Assembly (NCBI RefSeq): GCF_900114835.1
Contig: NZ_FOUJ01000003.1
Location: 186,001-250,000 of the forward strand
Source: Methanolobus profundi
Lineage (GTDB): Archaea > Halobacteriota > Methanosarcinia > Methanosarcinales > Methanosarcinaceae
Reading direction: 5' to 3'
Length of the DNA: 64,000 nt
In this document: piece after piece, positions 7,269 through 20,200 of the stretch
How the letters are laid out: each line of letters opens with the position of its first letter
Position numbering within the stretch: position 1 is the stretch's first letter
Made by a program: the position numbers and the translations under genes
The notes under the pieces: generated by a model
Told to the model about the DNA's origin: nothing
Database searches by the model: none
The model's input: the letters and a program-made list of their open reading frames with translations, nothing else

Positions 7269-9317
7269 TTATTTTCCTGAATATGAGTCTTCAGCAGAGC
7301 GGGAGCTCACAGCTTTCTTGCGCATGTAATCAGGGATAACATCCTTCTCTACAACAAGCTTGGATGTACCTATACCAACTACAATTACTTTTGTCTCAAC
7401 AGGTTCCTCTCCATCCCTTACCATGAGTTCCTTCTTAGTTACCTCGATCTCGACCTCGTCCTTACCATAACCGGCTGCTTTCATATAATCCATTATTATT
7501 CCCTTGCCGGTGTTCCTGGCAAAGTCAAAGGCCTGGATATAGTCAGGGAAGATCTGCCTTCCTTCAGGAGTGAACACAAAGTAACTGATGACCTCTTTTG
7601 CGTTCTTCAGTTCCTCATCTGTTACATCCTCACCCGTGATCGGAGCAAAGTCCTTCTTAATAAGGATCTCAACACGTTTGATGCCTTTTCCAACAAGTGC
7701 ACCGACAGCATTTCCAACATTTGCATGTTCAGGAACAACTATATCAGCATCGATGAGCTTTTCCATCTCTTCCTTATATGCAACAACAGGCCCACCCAAA
7801 AGGATAACTGGTGTTTCCACCTTGAAACGTGTGTAATTATCACCTGAAAGCATCTGGTCGATCACAGTCTGTGGAATGCCATCCACAAGGTAAGATACAA
7901 GGTCTGATGCCATGTTCTTTGCAACCTTTTTCTTAACCATGATGGCAACTTCCTCTTTTGTAATTCTTAGTTGCTTGGCGATCTTTTCAGCTCCCAGTAT
8001 AGAAGCTTCTGTTTCCCATAGATCGAACTCTCCAAGTACATGAAGTGCATCAGTTGGTGTGAAACCAATGGACTGTACGAGACGTTTCTGGATAAGACCA
8101 TCGAGTGCCCTCACGCTTGGTTGCTTCTTCAGACGCTGGAAAATGTCCACATAGGACACCGGAGATCCCTGGATCACATCGAATATCTCTTCCTCGGTCC
8201 TGCTAAGTTCAAGAGGTTTGAGACCGGTACGGACAAAGAATTTCGTTGGCTGTACATTTTCACAGAGAAGTTTTCTTGATGGTGATTTTGATTCTTTGAA
8301 CCTTTCAAGGAAACCCTGATACAAAGTTGCTGCACGACAAAGCGGGATAACTCTTCTGGGACCAATGTAGAACTTCTGGTCCTGGATCCATACGTGGCTG
8401 TCTCCACCTGTTGCTGAAGTTTCCATCCTGATGGCTTTTACCATTGTCTTCCAGCCGCCGACCACGGCACCCTGATCACTGAGTTCAGGAACACCATTTC
8501 TGATAAGAGCTACATCGGTACTTGTCCCACCAACATCGACCATTGCACATGTATCGTATTTTGTAAGGAAGGATGCACCTACAAGACTTGCAGCCGGTCC
8601 TGAGAATATAGATTCTATAGGACGCTCAAGGGCTTCTTCCATTCCCACAACAGAACCATCACATTTGAGCATGAGAAGGTTAGCATCCATACCTCTGGAC
8701 TTAATATCCTGCATTATTGACTGAATGAACTTGTGTGTGATAGGCAGAAGCTGTGCATTCAGATATGCAGTGATGGCCCTGTCGTATGCACCGACCTCCT
8801 GGGAAAGTTCGTGTCCGCAGACAACCGGAAGGCCGGTTAGCTCACGGATCATTTCCTTGACCCGAAGCTCATGTTCTGAGTTACGGTTGCTGAAGAATGA
8901 TGAAACGGAAAATGCTGCAACATGTTCTTTTACTTCAAGTGCAAAGAGCTTGACACCATCTTCGTCAAGAGGAGCAGCTTCCTCACCATTGCTTGTGTGA
9001 CCTCCACCGAGCTGGACATAGTATTTTGCCGGGAATCCCTCTTTTGGAATGACATAATCACCTACAAGGATCACACCTACAGGGAAACCAGTGTCTTCAA
9101 GGATCGTATTTGTAGACAGGGTGGTTGAGACTGAAACCAGCTTTACATCCTGGACATATTCAGGATCCAGCGAATCTATTACCTTTTTAATTCCGCCTAT
9201 TGGATCAGGATAGGTTGTCAGGACCTTTGTGGCATCCATTATAACTCCATCCGAGTCACGGATTATCACACCATCTGTAAATGTACCACCGGCATCAATG
9301 CCCAGACTGTATTGCAT
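7269..9317 (-). CDS. Hydantoinase/oxoprolinase family protein (HyuA-like)
   Basis: The 682-residue protein opens with GIDAGGTFTDGV, the phosphate-binding start of the hydantoinase A/5-oxoprolinase N-terminal domain, and has the second ATP-site block MVDVGGTSTDVALI at about residues 262-275. These ASKHA-fold proteins couple ATP hydrolysis to opening of cyclic amides. A winged-helix-like stretch may lie in the middle (about 370-430), followed by a C-terminal region with GNAVGALVGKG typical of the family. No HyuB partner is adjacent, so the substrate is unknown; related single-gene copies are common in methanogens. AAGGAG lies 8 bases before the ATG. The gene is divergent from the PGF-CTERM protein gene. 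Confidence 0.88.
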   Translation of the reverse strand: MQYSLGIDAGGTFTDGVIIRDSDGVIMDATKVLTTYPDPIGGIKKVIDSLDPEYVQDVKLVSVSTTLSTNTILEDTGFPVGVILVGDYVIPKEGFPAKYYVQLGGGHTSNGEEAAPLDEDGVKLFALEVKEHVAAFSVSSFFSNRNSEHELRVKEMIRELTGLPVVCGHELSQEVGAYDRAITAYLNAQLLPITHKFIQSIMQDIKSRGMDANLLMLKCDGSVVGMEEALERPIESIFSGPAASLVGASFLTKYDTCAMVDVGGTSTDVALIRNGVPELSDQGAVVGGWKTMVKAIRMETSATGGDSHVWIQDQKFYIGPRRVIPLCRAATLYQGFLERFKESKSPSRKLLCENVQPTKFFVRTGLKPLELSRTEEEIFDVIQGSPVSYVDIFQRLKKQPSVRALDGLIQKRLVQSIGFTPTDALHVLGEFDLWETEASILGAEKIAKQLRITKEEVAIMVKKKVAKNMASDLVSYLVDGIPQTVIDQMLSGDNYTRFKVETPVILLGGPVVAYKEEMEKLIDADIVVPEHANVGNAVGALVGKGIKRVEILIKKDFAPITGEDVTDEELKNAKEVISYFVFTPEGRQIFPDYIQAFDFARNTGKGIIMDYMKAAGYGKDEVEIEVTKKELMVRDGEEPVETKVIVVGIGTSKLVVEKDVIPDYMRKKAVSSRSAEDSYSGK

Positions 9318-9661: not shown

Positions 9662-12190
9662 ATGAAACACATCATTCTAGCAATTGCTCTTCTTGCGATA
9701 TTCGTATCTCCTGTAAGTGCAATGAACTGGCAGACAGAGACGGTGGATGACGCTTCCAGTTATTGTCCCTATGCTGGTCCCAATACTGGGAAGTATACTT
9801 CCCTTGCCTTCGATCCTTCAGACAATCCAGCGATAAGTTATCTATATTATAATTCCCACGAACTCAAATTCACACACTACAATAACTCAAGCTGGGAAAT
9901 AGAAACAGTGGACGATGCAGGACAGGTTGGACTCTACACTTCCCTTGAGTTTGATCATTCAGGCAATCCAGCGATCAGTTATTATGATTGGCTAAATGGT
10001 AGTCTCAAATTCACATACTACAACAACTCAAGTTGGGAAACAGAAACTGTGGACAATGCAGGACTGGTTGGACTTCATACTTCCCTTGCCTTTGATTCTT
10101 CAGGCAATCCAGCGATAAGTTATTACGATGCGTACCGGTACAACACCAGCCTCAAATTCGCATATTACAATGGCGGGATATGGGAAACAGAAACAGTGGA
10201 CAACATAGGAGATGTTGGAATATATACGTCCCTTGCCTTCGATCCTTCAGACAATCCGGCAATCAGTTATTATGATTTCAATACCAGCAAGGACCTCAAG
10301 TTCGCCCATTACAATGGTGCAAACTGGGAAATAGAAACAGTGGACAGTAGGCTGAATGTTGGAATGGGAACTTCCCTTTGCTATGATCCTTCCGGAGATC
10401 CGGCGATAAGCTATTTCGATCTGACAAACAAAGACCTCAAATTTGCACATTACAATGGCGCATACTGGGAAACAGAAACGGTAGGCAACGCACCAGGCTT
10501 GTACTTTGATGAAGACGAATACACTTATGGAGGCGATCTCACTTCCCTTGCCTTCGATGCTTCTGGAAATCCGGCGATAAGTTATAACGATGTTAATAAC
10601 GACGACCTTAAATTCGCATATTACAATGGTGCGAACTGGGAAATTGAAACCGTGGACAGCACGAATGATGTTGGGAGGTATGCATCCCTTTGCTTCGATT
10701 CTTCAGGAAATGCAGGGATCAGTTATTATGATTATACCAACTCGAATAACGCATTCCTCAAGTTTGCCTTTAGTATGACAGGTACGTTGCCTGTGAATTC
10801 CTCTGTACCAGATGCCTGGGTATATGTGGATGGGATCAACCGATCAGTACAGGCCAATACAACCCTGTATCTCTGGCCAGGTACATACAATATCACCGTA
10901 GTGAAGCAGGATTATGAAACACCTGCGATCCAGACCGTAAACGTTACTGAAGGGGCAAACCCGGAAATTGATTTTATTCCGGAACCTGCACCGCCGGTTG
11001 CCGGCTTTGTAGTTAATACAACATCAGTAACAGCAACGCAGGATGTAGCCTTTACCGACCATTCCACAGGTTTGATCAGCTCATGGTTATGGGACTTCAG
11101 TGACGGAACAACTTCCACCGACCAGAACCCTACACACAATTATACCACAACAGGAACCTATAACATCAGTTTAATTCTCACAAACCCATCCGGCAGCAGC
11201 ACACGTGTAAGAACTTCGTACATCACGATCGTTGATGCCCCGGTTGCCGGCTTCAGTGCCAATGTGACCTCCGGCACGGTTCCACTCTCCGTAGGTTTCA
11301 CCGATTCATCGACGAACGATCCGACAGCATGGTCATGGGATCTCGGTGACGGGAACACTTCCACCGACCAGAACCCGAACCACACTTATTCAGCCGTGGG
11401 AACCTACAATGTGAGCCTCAATGCAAGCAATGCTCAGGGAAGCAATATCATCACAAGGACTGCATATATTACTGTATCTGCGGTCAGTACAGAAAGTTCC
11501 GATCAAGGAAGTTCAAGTTCCAGCCATCGCGTATCCGTCAGTTCCAGTCAGGAACCTGATATTGTGATAAGCACCGACACATCCTTAATGCGTGTTTCAG
11601 GAAGCACGGCAATCGAGTTCGACCTTTCCGATGGTGATGGTCCGGTCCTTGGAATCGGTTTTGATGCAGAGGAGGATGAAGGTCTGGTTGTTACAAAGGT
11701 CCAGGTTCTCAATGGCACACCTGACGACGTACCGGTTCCAGGTGGCAACGTATATTCTGTGATGAGCATCGACGTTGGAGCCGAAGGTACGATCTCAAAT
11801 GATAATGCAGAGAACATAATGATACGTTTCAAGGTAAGCAGGGAATGGATCAATGAGAACAACATCGACCCTGATACCATCTCTCTGATGCATTTCTATG
11901 AGGGAGAATGGCAGGAACTTCCAACAGACCTGGAAAGTGAAGATGTGGATTTCCTGTACTTCACAGCCGAAACCTCCGACTTCTCGCTATTCTCGATTGT
12001 GGCAGACACTGCCAGCGAGGGAGTATCAGAAGAGAGCATTCAGGCAGAAGAAACTGCATCGATCGGTTCTGAAGAGGAACAAACAGACGAAGCAAGCACA
12101 GAAGATACAAAGAGCACACCAGGTTTTGGTGCACTGGTAGGAGTTGGCTTTGTATCACTTGCAATGCTTGTGATCAGAAAAAGAAAATAA
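9662..12190 (+). CDS. Surface protein with propeller-like repeats, two PKD domains and PGF-CTERM anchor
   Basis: The 842-residue protein has an N-terminal signal peptide. Residues 20-370 hold about seven degenerate repeats of 45-55 residues, each with a TSLAFDPS-like strand, NPAISYYD, LKFAYYN and WETETVD, probably a beta propeller. A PEGA-like segment follows (about 375-435), then two PKD domains (WLWDFSDGTTS and WSWDLGDGNTS at about 480 and 560). A Ser-rich linker leads to a PGF-pre-PGF-like domain (about 630-780). The C-terminus, PGFGALVGVGF plus a helix and RKRK, is a PGF-CTERM sorting signal cut by an archaeosortase. It is therefore exported and lipid-anchored to the S-layer side. Adhesion is likely but not shown. 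A strong terminator follows. Confidence 0.9.
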   Translation: MKHIILAIALLAIFVSPVSAMNWQTETVDDASSYCPYAGPNTGKYTSLAFDPSDNPAISYLYYNSHELKFTHYNNSSWEIETVDDAGQVGLYTSLEFDHSGNPAISYYDWLNGSLKFTYYNNSSWETETVDNAGLVGLHTSLAFDSSGNPAISYYDAYRYNTSLKFAYYNGGIWETETVDNIGDVGIYTSLAFDPSDNPAISYYDFNTSKDLKFAHYNGANWEIETVDSRLNVGMGTSLCYDPSGDPAISYFDLTNKDLKFAHYNGAYWETETVGNAPGLYFDEDEYTYGGDLTSLAFDASGNPAISYNDVNNDDLKFAYYNGANWEIETVDSTNDVGRYASLCFDSSGNAGISYYDYTNSNNAFLKFAFSMTGTLPVNSSVPDAWVYVDGINRSVQANTTLYLWPGTYNITVVKQDYETPAIQTVNVTEGANPEIDFIPEPAPPVAGFVVNTTSVTATQDVAFTDHSTGLISSWLWDFSDGTTSTDQNPTHNYTTTGTYNISLILTNPSGSSTRVRTSYITIVDAPVAGFSANVTSGTVPLSVGFTDSSTNDPTAWSWDLGDGNTSTDQNPNHTYSAVGTYNVSLNASNAQGSNIITRTAYITVSAVSTESSDQGSSSSSHRVSVSSSQEPDIVISTDTSLMRVSGSTAIEFDLSDGDGPVLGIGFDAEEDEGLVVTKVQVLNGTPDDVPVPGGNVYSVMSIDVGAEGTISNDNAENIMIRFKVSREWINENNIDPDTISLMHFYEGEWQELPTDLESEDVDFLYFTAETSDFSLFSIVADTASEGVSEESIQAEETASIGSEEEQTDEASTEDTKSTPGFGALVGVGFVSLAMLVIRKRK

Positions 12191-12273: not shown

Positions 12274-13410
12274 TCACTTGAACATCAGTGCCATTATTCC
12301 CGGTTTTGAAGGCTTCATAGGATTCTGGAAGAAGTCAGCCTCCATACTTGGGCCACCGAACATCTCATTATTCACCCTCTCGGTTATTTCATCCAGTATC
12401 ATCTTATAGGAGATACAATGTGGGTCCACGTCCTTTATTTCTCCACCAGTAGGAGTTATAGCATTGTAAGGACAGCCGCCTCTGCAGTATTTTATATGCT
12501 TGCAGTCCTTGCAGTTCTCATCCACATGAGCCTTGTAATCGAACATGAGCTTCCATGCAGCGGACTTTGAAAGTTCTTCAATACCTGGATCGTCACGGAC
12601 ATTGCCCATTACATATTCAGGCATACCTACAAAACGATAGCATGGATATATGCCTCCGTCAGGTCCGATTGCTAAGACATCTCCCATACAGTCTACGAAA
12701 GTGCATACTGCACCTCTGCCGCTGAATACGCCTTTACAGAGGTGGTCGATGTTCATTACCTCGATCTTGTCTATGTTCTCCAGATATTTGTCCAGGAGAT
12801 AGATGAGAAGCCTGCCGTATTCTTCCGGATCAAGAGCCCATTTTTCAGGTTCGTCGCCACGTAATGAAGGCAGAGCAGGGTGGAACTTAAGGGTCCAGCC
12901 ATTCTCCAGATAGAAATTGAAGATCTCCTCTCTGAATTTTTCAGAATGGGAAGTGAAAGTGGTAATGAATCTCACGGAAAGTCCATGTTCCTTTGCGATC
13001 TCATAGCCACGCATGGTCTTTTCATAATAGCCCTCTCCTCTCTGGAAATCATTAAGCTCTTTAGGACCGTCAAGACTGGAACCGATCGGAATGTTATATT
13101 CCGCGAAGATCTCAGCTATCTCATCGGTCATCTTCCAGAGGTTGGTCTGTATTGCAAAAGCCACTTTCTTCGGCTTTGCTCCCTCAGCAAGGAGCGGTAA
13201 CGCCTCCCTGTAAAAGTCTGCACCTGCCAGGAGCGGTTCTCCTCCATGGAAAGTAAAAGTAACCGAATCCTCCTCGAAGTTCTTGAGCCATTCAACTACT
13301 TCTTTTATGGTCTCGATACTCATAATAGGAGACTTTTCTTCGGAACTCCAGCAATAATTACATTCTCCCGGGCAACCCAGGGTTGGGATAAGCATCACGT
13401 GAAAAGACAT
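12274..13410 (-). CDS. Radical SAM/SPASM enzyme, putative peptide- or protein-modifying
   Basis: The 378-residue protein has the radical SAM cluster motif CPGECNYC (C-x3-C-x2-C) at about residues 13-20, FHGGEPLL near 54, and a C-terminal SPASM-type Cys set (CTFVDC, CYRF, CKDCKHIKYCRGGC at about 235-320) that would bind auxiliary Fe-S clusters. Enzymes of this build modify ribosomal peptides or mature protein side chains; from memory it resembles the methanogen family TIGR04083. Such enzymes usually sit beside a Cys-rich precursor peptide, but I find none within 230 bp on either side. The gene lies downstream of mcrA on the same strand, beyond a terminator. GGTGC precedes the ATG by 6 bases. 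The substrate is unknown; a role on McrA is possible but unproven. Confidence 0.85.
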   Translation of the reverse strand: MSFHVMLIPTLGCPGECNYCWSSEEKSPIMSIETIKEVVEWLKNFEEDSVTFTFHGGEPLLAGADFYREALPLLAEGAKPKKVAFAIQTNLWKMTDEIAEIFAEYNIPIGSSLDGPKELNDFQRGEGYYEKTMRGYEIAKEHGLSVRFITTFTSHSEKFREEIFNFYLENGWTLKFHPALPSLRGDEPEKWALDPEEYGRLLIYLLDKYLENIDKIEVMNIDHLCKGVFSGRGAVCTFVDCMGDVLAIGPDGGIYPCYRFVGMPEYVMGNVRDDPGIEELSKSAAWKLMFDYKAHVDENCKDCKHIKYCRGGCPYNAITPTGGEIKDVDPHCISYKMILDEITERVNNEMFGGPSMEADFFQNPMKPSKPGIMALMFK

Positions 13411-13590: not shown

Positions 13591-13624
13591 CAAAAAAAGG
13601 GTAAGTAGTAGGCATAAAGCCTAC
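13591..13624 (-). terminator. Terminator of the mcr operon
   Basis: Read on the minus strand, GTAGGC-TTTAT-GCCTAC (13608-13624) forms a 6-bp hairpin, followed nine bases later by TTTTTTT (13592-13598). It separates mcrA from the radical SAM gene. Confidence 0.65.
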
Positions 13625-13637
13625 ACTTGTTTTAAAA

Positions 13638-15356
13638 TTACTTTGCTGGAATGATGAGTGATCTCTCACCAGCAGGCTCGAACTCTTTGAGAGCTCCTCT
13701 TGCGAACTCCTTCCTTGGCTTAGAGAAGTCAAATGGCAGGAGATCGTCTGCGAAACAGACCTTGACAAGTGGGTTGACTGCATATGCATCTCCACGTCCT
13801 GCGTGAGCAGCGGATGCAATAGCTGTGTAACCACCCTGGTGACCTACGTTCATTGCGTAGTTAGGGTAGTTTGGTCCACGGAGTTCAAGAGCAAGACCTT
13901 CGTCGGACTGGTATGAGAGTACGTTTGTAGCACCACACTGGTCCTGCAGGTCGTATCCGAAGAAACCGAGACGGCCGTGTGCTTCCTTGTGGAGGTACAT
14001 ACAGAGGTACCATCCGGAGAGACCAGCGTTTCCGTTTCCTGTTGCCAGGGATACAGCTGAACCAGCTGCTGCGGAAAGGCTTGTTGCTCTCTGGGATCCA
14101 CCGAAGTGGTCTTCGAGGGTTGTTGGGTACTTCTCGTAGTTCTCGAGACCGTAGATCGTGGACTCTGTTGCGATGTCCTTTACTACTTCGAGGTCTGCCT
14201 TTATCTTGTTGTCTGTACCTGTTGTTGCTGCACCATCGTACTTGTCGTTGATGTAGTCTACGTTGTAGTAGAGGTTGTCATCAAGGATGTTGTTACAGTA
14301 TGCTGCTGTTGCGTACTGGGTGAAACCTACACCACCAGACATGTATGAACCGAGCCAGATCTGGTCGTAAAGCATACATGCTCCACCAACTACCTCAAGG
14401 GTAACGTTTGCTGGGTCTTCTGGTGTCTTACGGCTGGTCTGGATGATATCAGCCATGTGACCGAATGGAATTCCTCCAGGCTCGTTTGGTGCACGTGCAC
14501 GTCTTGCAGGAAGCATTTCTCCCATCTGGATAACACCAGCGTGCTTTGCTGCGTATGAAAGGTCAGCTACTGCTGCTTCACCAGCACACATGCTGTATGC
14601 TGAAATGAAAGCCATACCGACCTGCATAGCCATCCATCTGCTTGTCTGACCACCGTCTGTGGTTCTGCTGACAATTGTTGGGATGTGTGCTGCCTGGAAT
14701 GAGTTCTTTCCGATCGCTGCCTTAAGCTGCTCTGCCTGCTCTGCAGGGAACTGCTTGTTGATGTCGATAAGGAACTGGCTGTCGATCTCATCTGCGAGTT
14801 CATCGTCACCGGTGAAGATCTTTACGAAACAGTCATCTACAAGAGCTGGGTGTGTTTCGACCATGTGTTCCTGGACAACTGCTCCACCAGGAAGTGCGTG
14901 GTTGAGTGTCTCAAGGTAGTGGTTGATCGTTTCTGGTGTGACTTCGATACCGAGCCTCTTCTCGAGGGTCTCGTGTGCCATGTCCAGACCCACAATTACG
15001 GTCCTTCTGATGTCATCCCACATCTGCTGCATTGCAGCGTTGTTGACGTAGTGAAGGTCATCGATCTCTACCATGTCATCTGTTCCGGAAAGGAATGATG
15101 GGGTAAGTGCTCTCTGACCGAGTGGTATACCACCACAGTGCATCATTGGGTTGTAACCGACAAGGCCTCTCTTCTCTGCGAGTTCCTTACCAGCTTTTTT
15201 CATCTCTAATTTACGTGGGTTCTGATCGACACCAAGTCTGTAGTACTCTACAGTCTTGTCAGTGATCTCTCCACCGTTCATCTTGTTAGTACCGTGTTCT
15301 TTCGTGTACTTGATTTCCATGTGTTTTGCAAACATTCTCTTTCTATCGTCTGCCAT
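13638..15356 (-). CDS. mcrA: Methyl-coenzyme M reductase subunit alpha
   Basis: The 572-residue catalytic subunit binds coenzyme F430 and, in the (alpha beta gamma)2 complex, makes methane from methyl-CoM and CoB. The positions that carry post-translational changes in known McrA are all present: the His of YAAKHAGVI (N-methyl), the Arg of [14 protein letters not shown] (C-methyl, made by Mmp10), the Gln of GGSQRA, the Gly of [12 protein letters not shown] (thioglycine), and the Asp and Cys of that same stretch. [16 protein letters not shown] near residue 345 is also conserved. The true start is ATG 15356, preceded by GAGGTGAT; the frame stays open upstream to 15443 but that part overlaps mcrG. 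It is the last gene of mcrBDCGA. Confidence 0.98.
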
Positions 15357-15366
15357 TATAATCACC

Positions 15367-16116
15367 TCAGTTCTCCGGCTTGAATCCGTATGTGGTTCTC
15401 TGGTCGAATACTCTGTGTACCCATTCGATGACCTCTGCGTCATCTCTGAATGCTACATTGTCGACACGGTAGATGGTTGTCCTCTTTGCTGCTTCTTCTG
15501 CAGACATTGGCTTACCAAGGTTTACCTTCTTGTCGATAGGTCTTCCTACCTGGTCCTTGTGCATAATGATTACATCGCCTTCTCTTCTGCACCTGTCGAG
15601 CATGTCGAACATTACGCCGTCCTCAGGAAGTCTGAGTGAGTGACCGTGTACTGTTGCACCTCTAAGACTTGCGAGTGCTGGGCAGGTCATTTCAGTTTCC
15701 ATCTGGAACTTTGCGATCTCTTCCATGTCTCTCTCACGAGCTTCAACGACCTGACGACCGGAAAGTGTTCCTGGGTCGACACCTCTGAAGTTGATTGATG
15801 CTGCGTAGGATCTGAAGTATGGTACTGATGGACCGTTGTACATTGAGTCAACGAACTGTACATACCTTACCCTGTCACCAGCTTTTGCGCCTGGTGTTGG
15901 TTCTACCATTTCTCTGACTGAACACTCTGGCTCGCCCATTTCTGCGAGTGGTGGGTGGGTGCTTGGGTAGTCGCTACCTGGTGCACGGTGTCCGAGAACA
16001 AGTGTCAGGTCATCGTCGGAGATCTCTCTGAGCTTCTCGACTTTACCAGACATGTGTTTTCTTCTGTTTTCAGCAACGGATGTTGCTCCTGGATAATATT
16101 GTAGTTCATATGCCAT
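15367..16116 (-). CDS. mcrG: Methyl-coenzyme M reductase subunit gamma
   Basis: The 249-residue protein matches the gamma subunit throughout: AYELQYYPG at the start, [17 protein letters not shown] near 42, and [17 protein letters not shown] near 150. It forms part of the (alpha beta gamma)2 enzyme and contributes to the F430 site. AGGAGTG lies 7 bases before the ATG. It ends 10 bp before mcrA and starts 12 bp after mcrC, consistent with one transcript. Confidence 0.98.
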
Positions 16117-16128
16117 TATTATTCACTC

Positions 16129-16731
16129 CTAATTCTCTAATGATCTCATTGTGGTTTTCACGGCTTTCACGAGTTCGTTCAGTTTTTCCCTGGAACATGA
16201 TTCGCCTCGTGTAACTCCTGTCACAATTTCCATTACCCTTCCTTTTGCTAAAATATCACTATCTTTGGGTTTAACAAGCCGGGTCTTAACTCCTGCCATT
16301 GCAAAATCCTCGAAATCAACGAGGGTCTGACAAACAACTACTGCAGGAATATCGGCTTCTTCAAGAATTGACTTTACTTTTCTGACCACATGGTCTCTGA
16401 TGTTCCCTGTGTGGATCACAGCAACTTTATGCCTGTTGATCTGTGCTATCTCTTCAGGACTTATTCCAAAAGAGCCGGAACCCATGTTGGTATCCGGAAC
16501 ACCTGAACCGGTGTTGAGCACGAGCACACTTACCTGAATTTCCTCACGGCGCATGCCATATGTGAGTTCACATACTGGTTTTGTGATATGTCTTCTTCCC
16601 GGACTCATTGCAACTGCGATGACATCAGGTCTTCCTGTTTCGGAAAGAGTACCGCGCTGAGCAAGTCCTCCTCCACGGCCAAGACCCATTCCGTGTCTGC
16701 AATCTACAACCTGTGTTTCCCGGTCGAACAT
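16129..16731 (-). CDS. mcrC: McrC, methyl-coenzyme M reductase activation component
   Basis: The 200-residue protein has the McrC start (MFDRETQVVDCRHGMGLGRGGG) and the internal SPGRRHITKPVCELTYGMR block. McrC is not a subunit of the final enzyme; it was found in the ATP-dependent complex that reduces F430 nickel to the active Ni(I) state. The conserved Cys at about residues 11 and 52 fit a redox or metal role. GTGATAGA before the ATG supplies a weak ribosome site. It sits between mcrD and mcrG, the order used by Methanosarcinales. Confidence 0.96.
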   Translation of the reverse strand: MFDRETQVVDCRHGMGLGRGGGLAQRGTLSETGRPDVIAVAMSPGRRHITKPVCELTYGMRREEIQVSVLVLNTGSGVPDTNMGSGSFGISPEEIAQINRHKVAVIHTGNIRDHVVRKVKSILEEADIPAVVVCQTLVDFEDFAMAGVKTRLVKPKDSDILAKGRVMEIVTGVTRGESCSREKLNELVKAVKTTMRSLEN

Positions 16732-16739
16732 TCTATCAC

Positions 16740-17246
16740 TTATTCCATGTCATTTGGTATGTCATCAGGTTTAAGGATACATACAGGATTATCCTTCAAT
16801 TTTCCCTTCGGATCTGTCATTCCTATCATCATAGGATCAGCGCCGGGTCCCCGTTTTGCATAATCGGTGACGGTCTGCCTGGTTGGTATGAAATGACCTA
16901 CTCTGAATTCAAAGGGCATTGTAAGGATAGTTTCACAAACTTCCCTGACCTGCTCCTTTACGTCTACATCTGCAACTTCTATACGAATGCTACCGACATA
17001 TACGGAAAGTTCTATTGTCTGACCTGCAACCTCTATGACCTTGTTCCCTGAATGCTGCACAGGTAAGCCTGTTGCAGGTCCGTAAGGAACGGTCTGAGGA
17101 AGTCTTGGACCATGAACGAACAGTCTTATTATACCATCGACATCTGCGATAGCGTTGAGCAAGGACTGAGCGGTTTCAGGTTTTAGCAGCCTTGAAGGAA
17201 ATACTTCAAGCTGCACAATGTTTGCGGCTGAACAAGCTTCGGACAT
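16740..17246 (-). CDS. mcrD: McrD, methyl-coenzyme M reductase operon protein D
   Basis: The 168-residue protein has the McrD blocks QLEVFPSRLLKPETAQ near the start, FVHGPRLPQTVPYGPATG near 43, and EFRVGHFIPTRQTVTDYAKRGPG near 118. McrD associates with unassembled or immature MCR and is thought to act as an assembly factor or chaperone. AGGTAA lies 7 bases before the ATG. It starts 50 bp after mcrB, the widest gap in the operon. Confidence 0.97.
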   Translation of the reverse strand: MSEACSAANIVQLEVFPSRLLKPETAQSLLNAIADVDGIIRLFVHGPRLPQTVPYGPATGLPVQHSGNKVIEVAGQTIELSVYVGSIRIEVADVDVKEQVREVCETILTMPFEFRVGHFIPTRQTVTDYAKRGPGADPMMIGMTDPKGKLKDNPVCILKPDDIPNDME

Positions 17247-17296
17247 TTTTGTTACCTTTATGATTATCTGTGATATTTAAGGAGGGGAGTTGGGCC

Positions 17297-18601
17297 TTAG
17301 AGTGCACCTGCCACTGCCTTGATTGGCTCCTTGAATTCTGGGATGGATCCAAATACGTTACCGACAAGTGTGGATGTCTTCTCTATGGTGGTCATCTGTG
17401 TGCCTGCATCAAGTGAAACTGCTGCACATACACAAGGAATTGCGAAACCTCTGGAGTGTCTGGTTACAACGTGGTTACCGTTGAAGATACCTGGTCCACC
17501 GCCACCATAGATGGAGTGACTGAAGAATGAGAATCCTACTGCAGTACCCTGTGCTCTACCCATGTCAGTACCTGGAAGACCTGTTTCCTTCTCAAGTATG
17601 TCGTTGTAGTAGAGGATGGTTGATGATACGTTCTGAGCTGCCCTGCCTGCACCACAGTTTACCATGGTTGCTGCAAGCTGACCTGCTGCTGCACATGCGT
17701 TCCACATTGAAACATCGTTTGCCTTGTAGAAGTTGTATCCGGATGGAGCTGTCTTGTCGACTGAGATGATACCTGCTTCAAGAGCTCTGTCAACTGTTGA
17801 CTGAATCACAGTACCGATCGTACCGTCCTTACCGTTCTCTTTTACGATGTCGTAAACGTAGTTGCCTGCGTTAAGACCCTGGTATGCAAGACCGAGTAAC
17901 TGGTGTCTCTCGAATGGTCCTACAGCGTTACCCATCTCGTACATTCCTACCTGCTCGAAGATTGATGAAAGTGCTGCTGCATTCATTGCCTTCTTGCCGG
18001 TAATTGCTGCTACGTGGTTTGTTGTGATGTTCCTCAGGGAGTAACCAAGACCTTCGTTGTTCTGTGGGATGCTGAGAATGGATGCGATGTTTGCGCCCTT
18101 CATGTCCATTGTCTGTGGGTAGCTTCCCCATACAGCGGACTTTACGATTGGTGCATCGAACATGTCAGTGTTGAACATGTCAATGATGGTCTGGACGACT
18201 GCTGCACCTGTTACGGTACTTGCAGATACGAAGTCAGCACCTATCTGGGTCCTTATGCTTGGGATCTGGACAAGAAGCTGCTTTCCGCCACTAAGTTCTG
18301 TTACTGCTGTGTCGTCATCATCGCTGACCTGGATGAGCTTCTTTACTGCATCACAGATAGCACCTGAGTTGCCTACGATATCGTACTCAAGTTCTCTACC
18401 GAGGATCTGCTTTTTAGCTCCACCCATTGAACCGGTCTTAAGTGCTTTGTCGATACCTGCGAGGTTAACAGCAACTGTCCTCTTTGTATCTTTGATGATG
18501 TTTTGAATCGCTGCGTTCCTTGTTGGCGCAATAGCTGTAAGATCAACGCCGCTTTCCAACAGTTTACCTCTGTCGTCGTAAATGTCTATTTTATCAGACA
18601 C
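17297..18601 (-). CDS. mcrB: Methyl-coenzyme M reductase subunit beta
   Basis: The 434-residue beta subunit is full length, with the family start [15 protein letters not shown], the central [17 protein letters not shown], and the C-terminal [21 protein letters not shown] that borders the CoB and F430 channel. It begins with GTG at 18601, with AGGAGG placed 11 bases upstream, the strongest ribosome site seen in this operon. It is the first gene of mcrBDCGA and is preceded by a leader of about 240 bases. Confidence 0.98.
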
Positions 18602-18967: not shown

Positions 18968-20200
18968 ATGGAGATCACCGCTGACGTAGGAGGCAATCCA
19001 GGGATCGATTGCAAGGGCTTCTGCACATATTGTTATTTCAAAAAGGTAAAAGAGAATCCTCCTTTTGGATGCAAATACTGTTTTCCCTTCAAAAAGGGCT
19101 GTGATTACTGCACCAGAGGTGTAAGGGAAGCCTACTCCAGCTTCAAACCAGGACAATACGTATTCCAGGAACTCTATCAGAGACTCATGATGGGAGGAGA
19201 CATAGAAAAGATAACCATCAGTGGTGGAGGGGACGTAAGTTGTTACCCGGACCTGAAGGAATTGGTTGCTAATCTGGCACAGTTCGGTCTGCCGATCCAC
19301 CTTGGATATACAAGTGGAAAAGGCTTCGATAAAGGCGACGAAGCAGAGTTCTTCATAGAATACGGAGTTACAGAGGTTTCCTTCACAGTATTCGCAACTG
19401 ATCCAGCTCTTCGAAAAGAGTACATGAGAGACCCTGAACCTGAAGCATCACTTGAGGTGCTCCGCCAGTTCTGCAAGCAATGCGATGTCTATGCAGCTAT
19501 TGTCCTGATCCCCGGGGTCAATGACGGAGATGTTCTGGACAAGACACTGACAGATCTTGTGGAAATGGGAGCAAAGGGAGCGATACTTATGCGCTTTGCC
19601 AACAGGACAGAAGAAGGCCTCATACTGAACAACGCACCTGTGATGGATGGGATAGAAACACACACCATAGAGGAGTTCGTGCAGATAGTCCGTGATGCCG
19701 ATGCAAAATATAACATAAGGATCACAGGAACACCACTTGAAGACCCGCTCATTGGTTCCCCATACGCCATCAGGAACGAAGAGGAAGCACTTGGCAAATT
19801 ACCAGAGGTCAGAAAGGATGCAACTGTGCTTTCAAGCAGAGCTTCTAAAGAAAGGCTTCAGGAGATATTCACAAAAATCGGAAGTCCTGTCAATGTCGTT
19901 GCCGTTGAAAAGGATATAGGATGCCTCATAACAATAGAGGATCTGGAAAGACTTGACCTGAACAACGTAAAGGAAACAGTGATCATGCCGGGAAGAGCGT
20001 TCGTGTATGATGCTGAAGCAACAAATGTTCTCTCAAGGGATGGAGTCTCACGTTTTGTGCGTAGAGGACCTGAAATGCTCACATATGACGGAGAGATGTC
20101 CATAGGTCACTCAAAGGAAGAAGTGCTCGAATTCGAGATCGAGCAGTTCACCGAGCTCATAAATGAGATAAATGCGATAGGTCTTCCGATAGCCGAATAG
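18968..20200 (+). CDS. mmp10: Mmp10, radical SAM methyltransferase of McrA arginine
   Basis: The 410-residue protein is methanogenesis marker 10. It carries the radical SAM motif CKGFCTYC at about residues 15-22, a close run of extra cysteines ([14 protein letters not shown], about 35-48) and [13 protein letters not shown] near 80. Mmp10 is a cobalamin-dependent radical SAM enzyme that methylates the conserved McrA arginine to 5-methylarginine, helping MCR stability. It is divergent from mcrB across a 366-bp region, an arrangement also known in Methanosarcina. No Shine-Dalgarno precedes the ATG, fitting a leaderless message. It converges on the PolD gene, with a small CTGGTA/TACCAG hairpin in the gap. 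Confidence 0.96.

Follow-up and report, generated by a model that had tools for sequence, protein, structure and literature searches.

Anaerobic sulfatase maturases (anSMEs; TIGR03942, structures 4k36 and 4k37) combine a radical SAM core with a SPASM domain and oxidise the beta-carbon of a residue in another enzyme, with Asp277 serving as the catalytic base in anSMEcpe. Another SPASM enzyme, the ranthipeptide maturase PapB (NF047865), is described in PMC9413430 as linking Cys to the beta-carbon of Asp, which yields Cys-Asp thioethers in a dedicated peptide. Mmp10 (TIGR03278), a radical SAM protein that modifies McrA, is a cobalamin-dependent arginine methyltransferase according to PMC11659888. 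The system that shares its enzyme family with the protein described here is the TIGR04083/TIGR04165 pair of Methanobacteriales, in which a radical SAM/SPASM protein (TIGR04083, rSAM_pep_methan) is encoded beside a Cys-rich peptide (TIGR04165), and for which the database name implies a peptide and its maturase.

For the McrA of Methanosarcina acetivorans, PMC9081873 gives methyl-His, methyl-Arg, thioGly, methyl-Cys and didehydroAsp as modifications. Makers have been reported for methyl-Cys, thioGly and methyl-Arg (PMC7581889, PMC7058361), and for methyl-Gln, whose maker is MgmA (PMC11796369). Since three of the M. acetivorans changes have known makers and N1-methyl-His is found in every MCR of the table in PMC9081873, didehydroAsp is the one that is left. 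Its maker is stated to be unknown in passages of papers from 2020 and 2021 (PMC7581889, PMC8070964), and the first-pass annotation, too, had counted didehydroaspartate among the residues that may await a maker. This agrees with our survey of the open-access literature, a scope outside which most subscription papers and preprints lie: within it we found no enzyme assigned to didehydroaspartate and no paper naming TIGR04083.

The window, by which we mean the whole stretch of 64,000 nucleotides of Methanolobus profundi DNA that was analysed, carries a TIGR04083 gene downstream of mcrA, among the following features:

7269..9317, minus strand: hydantoinase/oxoprolinase-type protein (Pfam)
12274..13410, minus strand: TIGR04083 radical SAM/SPASM enzyme gene, candidate McrA didehydroaspartate synthase (open reading frame and profile scores)
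12406..12408, minus strand: codon of Tyr335, three residues past the last SPASM Cys, where the M. wolfeii-type genome has a stop codon (alignment)
12415..12705, minus strand: SPASM Cys 236, 241, 257, 300, 303, 309, 313 and 332, and Tyr258 (alignment of 90 members)
13351..13374, minus strand: CxxxCxxC motif of the radical SAM [4Fe-4S] cluster (Cys13, Cys17, Cys20; all three invariant among the 90 members aligned)
13608..13624, minus strand: hairpin just 3' of mcrA, followed at a short distance by a T run (sequence)
13638..15356, minus strand: mcrA, proposed substrate (TIGR03256, 1002.3 bits); the probable start is at 15356 (MADDRKRM), and the reading frame extends to 15443
13935..13937, minus strand: S-methylCys site of McrA, flanking the Asp codon (motif position)
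13941..13943, minus strand: Asp codon in the GYDLQDQC motif of McrA, proposed target (motif position)
13956..13958, minus strand: thioGly site of McrA, flanking the Asp codon (motif position)
15367..18601, minus strand: mcrG, mcrC, mcrD and mcrB, upstream of mcrA (translations recognised by eye)
18968..20200, plus strand: Mmp10, McrA arginine methyltransferase (TIGR03278, 622.9 bits)

On the minus strand the genes run in the order mcrB-D-C-G-A-enzyme, with a gap of 227 bp between mcrA and the enzyme gene, and 366 bp past mcrB the Mmp10 gene begins on the opposite strand. The first-pass annotation had thus described the layout correctly when it placed the enzyme gene about 230 bp after mcrA on the same strand, with Mmp10 on the other side of mcr. 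One further gene (9662-12190) lies between the enzyme gene and the hydantoinase-type gene. The thioGly, Asp and S-methylCys sites of the window's McrA have the same spacing as Gly465, Asp470 and Cys472 of M. acetivorans McrA, as numbered in PMC7058361. The hairpin after mcrA, a palindrome that the consensus scan listed on the plus strand only, could be where the mcr transcript ends; with this hairpin and its T run in between, the enzyme gene may be transcribed independently, from a separate promoter.

The enzyme gene is open at exactly 12274-13410 from an ATG start and encodes 378 residues, of which residues 4-378 align with positions 1-376 of the TIGR04083 profile at 688.4 bits (cut-off 300). 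As a SPASM domain is also recognised (TIGR04085, 64.7 bits against a cut-off of 27; Pfam SPASM, 32.3), the earlier description of the gene as a SPASM radical SAM enzyme is confirmed. The best model after TIGR04083 is that of the anaerobic sulfatase maturases, TIGR03942, at 189.3 bits and below its cut-off of 349.45, and the nearest solved structures are the sulfatase-maturating enzymes 4k36 and 4k37, at about 109 bits. In the family alignment (97 sequences, 90 of them distinct, with the two loci L267 and L268 of a gene split in genome G560 dropped), the three radical SAM Cys and the eight SPASM Cys are invariant in the 90 distinct members, Tyr335 is kept in 99% and Tyr258 in at least 98%. Tyr258 follows the third Cys of auxiliary cluster I and stands at the position of anSMEcpe Asp277, so that the enzyme family shares the radical SAM core and SPASM domain of the anSMEs but has Tyr in place of their Asp. 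This change and the score below cut-off rule out a sulfatase maturase as the identity of the protein, which by its sequence looks like an oxidising SPASM enzyme and yet not like a sulfatase maturase. PapB is likewise a SPASM enzyme and reacts at an Asp beta-carbon, the site proposed here, but the enzyme scores 111.2 bits against NF047865, whose cut-off is 340; Mmp10, although likewise a radical SAM protein encoded by this locus, is set apart by its described cobalamin-dependent chemistry. An AlphaFold model of the enzyme alone had a mean pLDDT of 50.6 and is left out of the argument.

Carrier and placement counts were taken over related genomes. TIGR04083 exceeds its cut-off in 131 of the 392 Halobacteriota genomes sampled, and mcrA is present in 218; all but four of the carriers (127/131; the exceptions are G145, G163, G300 and G363) have mcrA. 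Carriers number 151 of 237 genomes in the window's class and 10 of 27 in its own genus. Within the genus, all ten carriers have the enzyme gene on the strand of mcrA and 171-490 bp downstream of it, and the six examined with their flanks all have mcrA on one side of it and the hydantoinase-type gene on the other, while in the seven non-carriers examined mcrA and the hydantoinase-type gene directly adjoin. The hydantoinase-type gene itself stays downstream of mcrA in the carriers and the non-carriers examined alike. At one locus (L081, genome G061) the 3' end of a second, broken mcrA is found downstream of the enzyme gene (9691-10330); together with its flank, this remnant matches four of the seven non-carrier loci over 630-643 bp and carrier loci over only 534-548 bp, a pattern that would fit insertion of mcrA together with the enzyme gene through recombination at mcrA.

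Across the tabulated carriers, that is, the 69 genomes with both genes on one contig among the matches listed, in which not every second mcrA copy is covered, no more than 10 kb separates the enzyme gene from mcrA in 30, representing 10 of 27 genera and six families, and the enzyme gene is downstream in every one of the 30. In closed genomes it is this near in 14 of 50, against 0.34 expected under random placement; without the window's own genus the figure is 7 of 43 against 0.30, six of the seven belonging to one genus. The proximity to mcrA is more than chance. The other 36 of the 43 closed genomes have the enzyme gene more than 10 kb from mcrA, and it is far from mcrA in the tabulated Methanosarcina genomes and in M. 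marburgensis. Three genomes of family f5 (G211, G685 and G701) have mmp10 and the enzyme gene side by side near mcr.

Elsewhere among methanogens, TIGR04083 is carried by 54 of 59 genomes of the Methanobacteriaceae (the family of G394). A scan of McrA in named records (80 loci, with the genomes of 34 searched) yielded 15 carriers, including all 12 of Methanobacteriaceae/Methanobrevibacter type. No match over the cut-off was obtained in the searched records of Methanocaldococcus, Methanothermococcus, Methanopyri, Methanomassiliicoccales, Methanomethylicota and Archaeoglobi; for bacteria, the search covered control genomes only. A genome of the window's own family (G314, C47:64335-65450) has a TIGR04083-like gene of 209.8 bits with an in-frame TGA, which is perhaps decaying.

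The status of the residue itself can be compared with that of the gene. Table 1 of PMC9081873 records didehydroaspartate for both MCR I and MCR II of M. marburgensis and for M. barkeri and M. acetivorans, and PMC12413448 reports it for ANME-2c and two ANME-2d; the entries without it in PMC9081873 are M. kandleri, M. formicicus, M. wolfeii, M. thermolithotrophicus, Methermicoccus, ANME-1 and Ethanoperedens. Genomes were paired with these MCRs by McrA identity, M. acetivorans being a named control. The gene is present in all four residue-bearing organisms whose identity follows from their name or from an identical McrA: it is open in M. marburgensis (G555, McrA identical over 550/550 residues), has no internal stop in M. 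barkeri (G660, McrA 100% identical) or in the ANME-2d of structure 9QR1 (G603, McrA 100% identical), and is carried by M. acetivorans (the named control and also G380). In the single identified species that lacks the residue, M. wolfeii, there is no working gene (1/1, a stop codon). The comparison of gene presence with McrA modifications that the first-pass annotation had called for is thus favourable in these cases, but genome G604 disagrees: its McrA is 98.6% identical to that of the second ANME-2d structure, 9QQT, in which the residue is present, and this genome, 98% complete, is not among the TIGR04083 matches. TIGR04083 is likewise not found over its cut-off in a Methanopyrus relative (G407), three Methanococcales (G404-G406) or the control M. 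jannaschii, where M. kandleri, M. thermolithotrophicus and M. formicicus, as cases of absence, rest on relatives and not on the species themselves. Of the MCRs listed, the comparison covers M. marburgensis, M. barkeri, M. acetivorans, M. wolfeii and one ANME-2d directly, and the second ANME-2d, M. kandleri, M. thermolithotrophicus and M. formicicus through relatives; for Methermicoccus, the best McrA identity within the class genomes is 76%. Locus L197 was considered as ANME-1 and did not fit, family f2 was rejected as ANME-2c, and the contigs of family f38, where a match for the remaining MCRs was sought, carry no mcrA. Every one of the 192 scanned McrA sequences retains the target Asp, from TIGR04083 carriers and non-carriers alike, so the McrA sequence is no test of the modification.

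The M. wolfeii case comes from genome G562, whose McrA I is identical to that of 5a8k, a structure from M. wolfeii, and whose McrA II is identical over 548 residues to that of 5a8w, which we take to be an M. wolfeii structure as well. Its TIGR04083 gene (L265) is 85% identical along its length to the M. marburgensis gene and is interrupted at codon 337 of 375 by a TAG, which removes the last 39 residues; the stop falls on the strongly conserved Tyr three residues past the last SPASM Cys. The case consists of a single stop codon, and the strain may differ from the one whose MCR was studied. Didehydroaspartate is the one change that PMC9081873 tabulates for M. marburgensis MCR I and that M. wolfeii lacks. 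Of eight Methanothermobacter genomes, six have open genes, G562 has the stop, and in G560 (L329) a single-base difference within a run of Gs splits the gene. The split is possibly a sequencing error and was not counted as a loss; if it is real, that organism should be without didehydroaspartate.

With an intact copy in the checkable organisms that bear the residue and a broken copy in a relative that lacks it, the enzyme gene is probably the maker. We put the probability that TIGR04083 proteins install alpha,beta-didehydroaspartate in McrA, at the Asp of the GYDLQDQC loop, at roughly 0.7, an assignment that we infer from genomes and do not offer as a demonstration. The suggestion of the first-pass annotation that McrA or another MCR protein is the target gains support, at the level of sequence, from the distribution, the placement downstream of mcrA and the broken M. 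wolfeii copy.

TIGR04083 could instead modify the adjoining Cys-rich TIGR04165 peptide, with the Halobacteriota members being either orphans or accompanied by a peptide that has gone unseen. That relatives have such a peptide next door, as had been stated earlier, holds for Methanobacteriales-type genomes, where TIGR04165 adjoins TIGR04083 in 32 of 40 (upstream in 31, some genes being represented twice) and where it lies about 10 bp upstream of the enzyme gene in all eight Methanothermobacter genomes (L260-L268, L327-L329). It does not hold for the Halobacteriota loci examined, of which 72 of 73 have no adjoining TIGR04165 and one has a weak look-alike, and the modification of the peptide is a matter of annotation, the pairing being implied by the database name. 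Two TIGR04165 members score 88 and 86 bits against the cut-off of 60; among the 392 Halobacteriota genomes, 131 of them enzyme carriers, none exceeds it in a search run without a positive control, which gave weak matches of up to 30.8 bits in 45 of them. In the window's own genome the best match reaches 15.1 bits, so that a search for a Cys-rich precursor elsewhere in the genome, made with TIGR04165 only, gave nothing over the cut-off, and the flanks are as free of a Cys-rich peptide as the first-pass annotation had found them, the four touching reading frames of at least 20 residues having one Cys each. On the flanks and on the TIGR04165 search of the genome, the window's enzyme does not form part of a TIGR04083/TIGR04165 peptide-maturase pair. 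Nor does any cluster of conserved small reading frames beside 91 enzyme loci span more than two labelled groups, among the clusters listed. TIGR04165, although named a Cys-rich peptide, resembles a zinc ribbon, and in the M. wolfeii-type genome (G562) it is intact beside the broken enzyme gene. TIGR04165 is an unlikely general substrate of TIGR04083, and this explanation as a whole seems to us improbable, while in Methanobacteriales the peptide may be a substrate or a partner of the enzyme.

The placement and distribution would also fit if the enzyme acted on MCR through another change, either at an unreported residue of McrA, McrB or McrG or in a step of assembly. Of the reported changes, however, methyl-Cys, thioGly, methyl-Arg and methyl-Gln already have makers; N1-methyl-His is in all the MCRs tabulated in PMC9081873, whereas the TIGR04083 gene is not everywhere; 6-hydroxy-Trp is listed there for M. 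formicicus, the sampled genomes of whose order are without TIGR04083; and didehydroaspartate is the change that sets M. wolfeii apart from M. marburgensis MCR I. We hold such another change in MCR to be quite improbable. It is highly improbable, in our judgement, that the enzyme serves a methanogen protein outside MCR and lies near mcr through incidental gene order. Such an account draws on the enzyme gene being more than 10 kb from mcrA in closed Methanosarcina, Methanothermobacter and most of the other closed genomes tabulated, but it has to contend with the 14 of 50 closed genomes near mcrA, where 0.34 would be expected, and with the neighbouring genes: among neighbour families present in at least 3 of 21 stretches, the mcr and mmp10 genes are the only ones found across more than one taxonomic family, and certain other neighbour families are present in two stretches.

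Returning to didehydroaspartate synthesis as the preferred role, we infer the substrate, chemistry and timing of the reaction as follows. The CxxxCxxC cluster would cleave SAM, and the resulting 5'-deoxyadenosyl radical would abstract a hydrogen from the beta-carbon of the Asp, before or during the assembly of MCR. Loss of the alpha proton and transfer of one electron to the SPASM clusters would then leave a Calpha=Cbeta bond, a conversion of radical to double bond that we propose by reasoning. The net result would be a two-electron oxidation as in the anaerobic sulfatase maturases, on another residue and without their Asp base. For the attack of a SPASM enzyme on an Asp beta-carbon, PapB provides a chemical precedent. 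We also think it reasonably probable that the fuller picture holds, in which TIGR04083 is the missing didehydroaspartate synthase of MCR, a SPASM desaturase acting on an Asp of a large catabolic enzyme, and TIGR04165, where present, is an accessory zinc-ribbon partner.

Having a named candidate gene makes the question of the didehydroaspartate maker directly testable in Methanosarcina acetivorans, an organism in which, as PMC7058361 reports, deletion of other genes for MCR modification has been combined with mass spectrometry of McrA. If the assignment is true, the database label of TIGR04083 as peptide-modifying would need correction, the didehydroaspartate status of an organism would be predictable from its genome, and the enzyme would be of relevance for producing MCR in other hosts.
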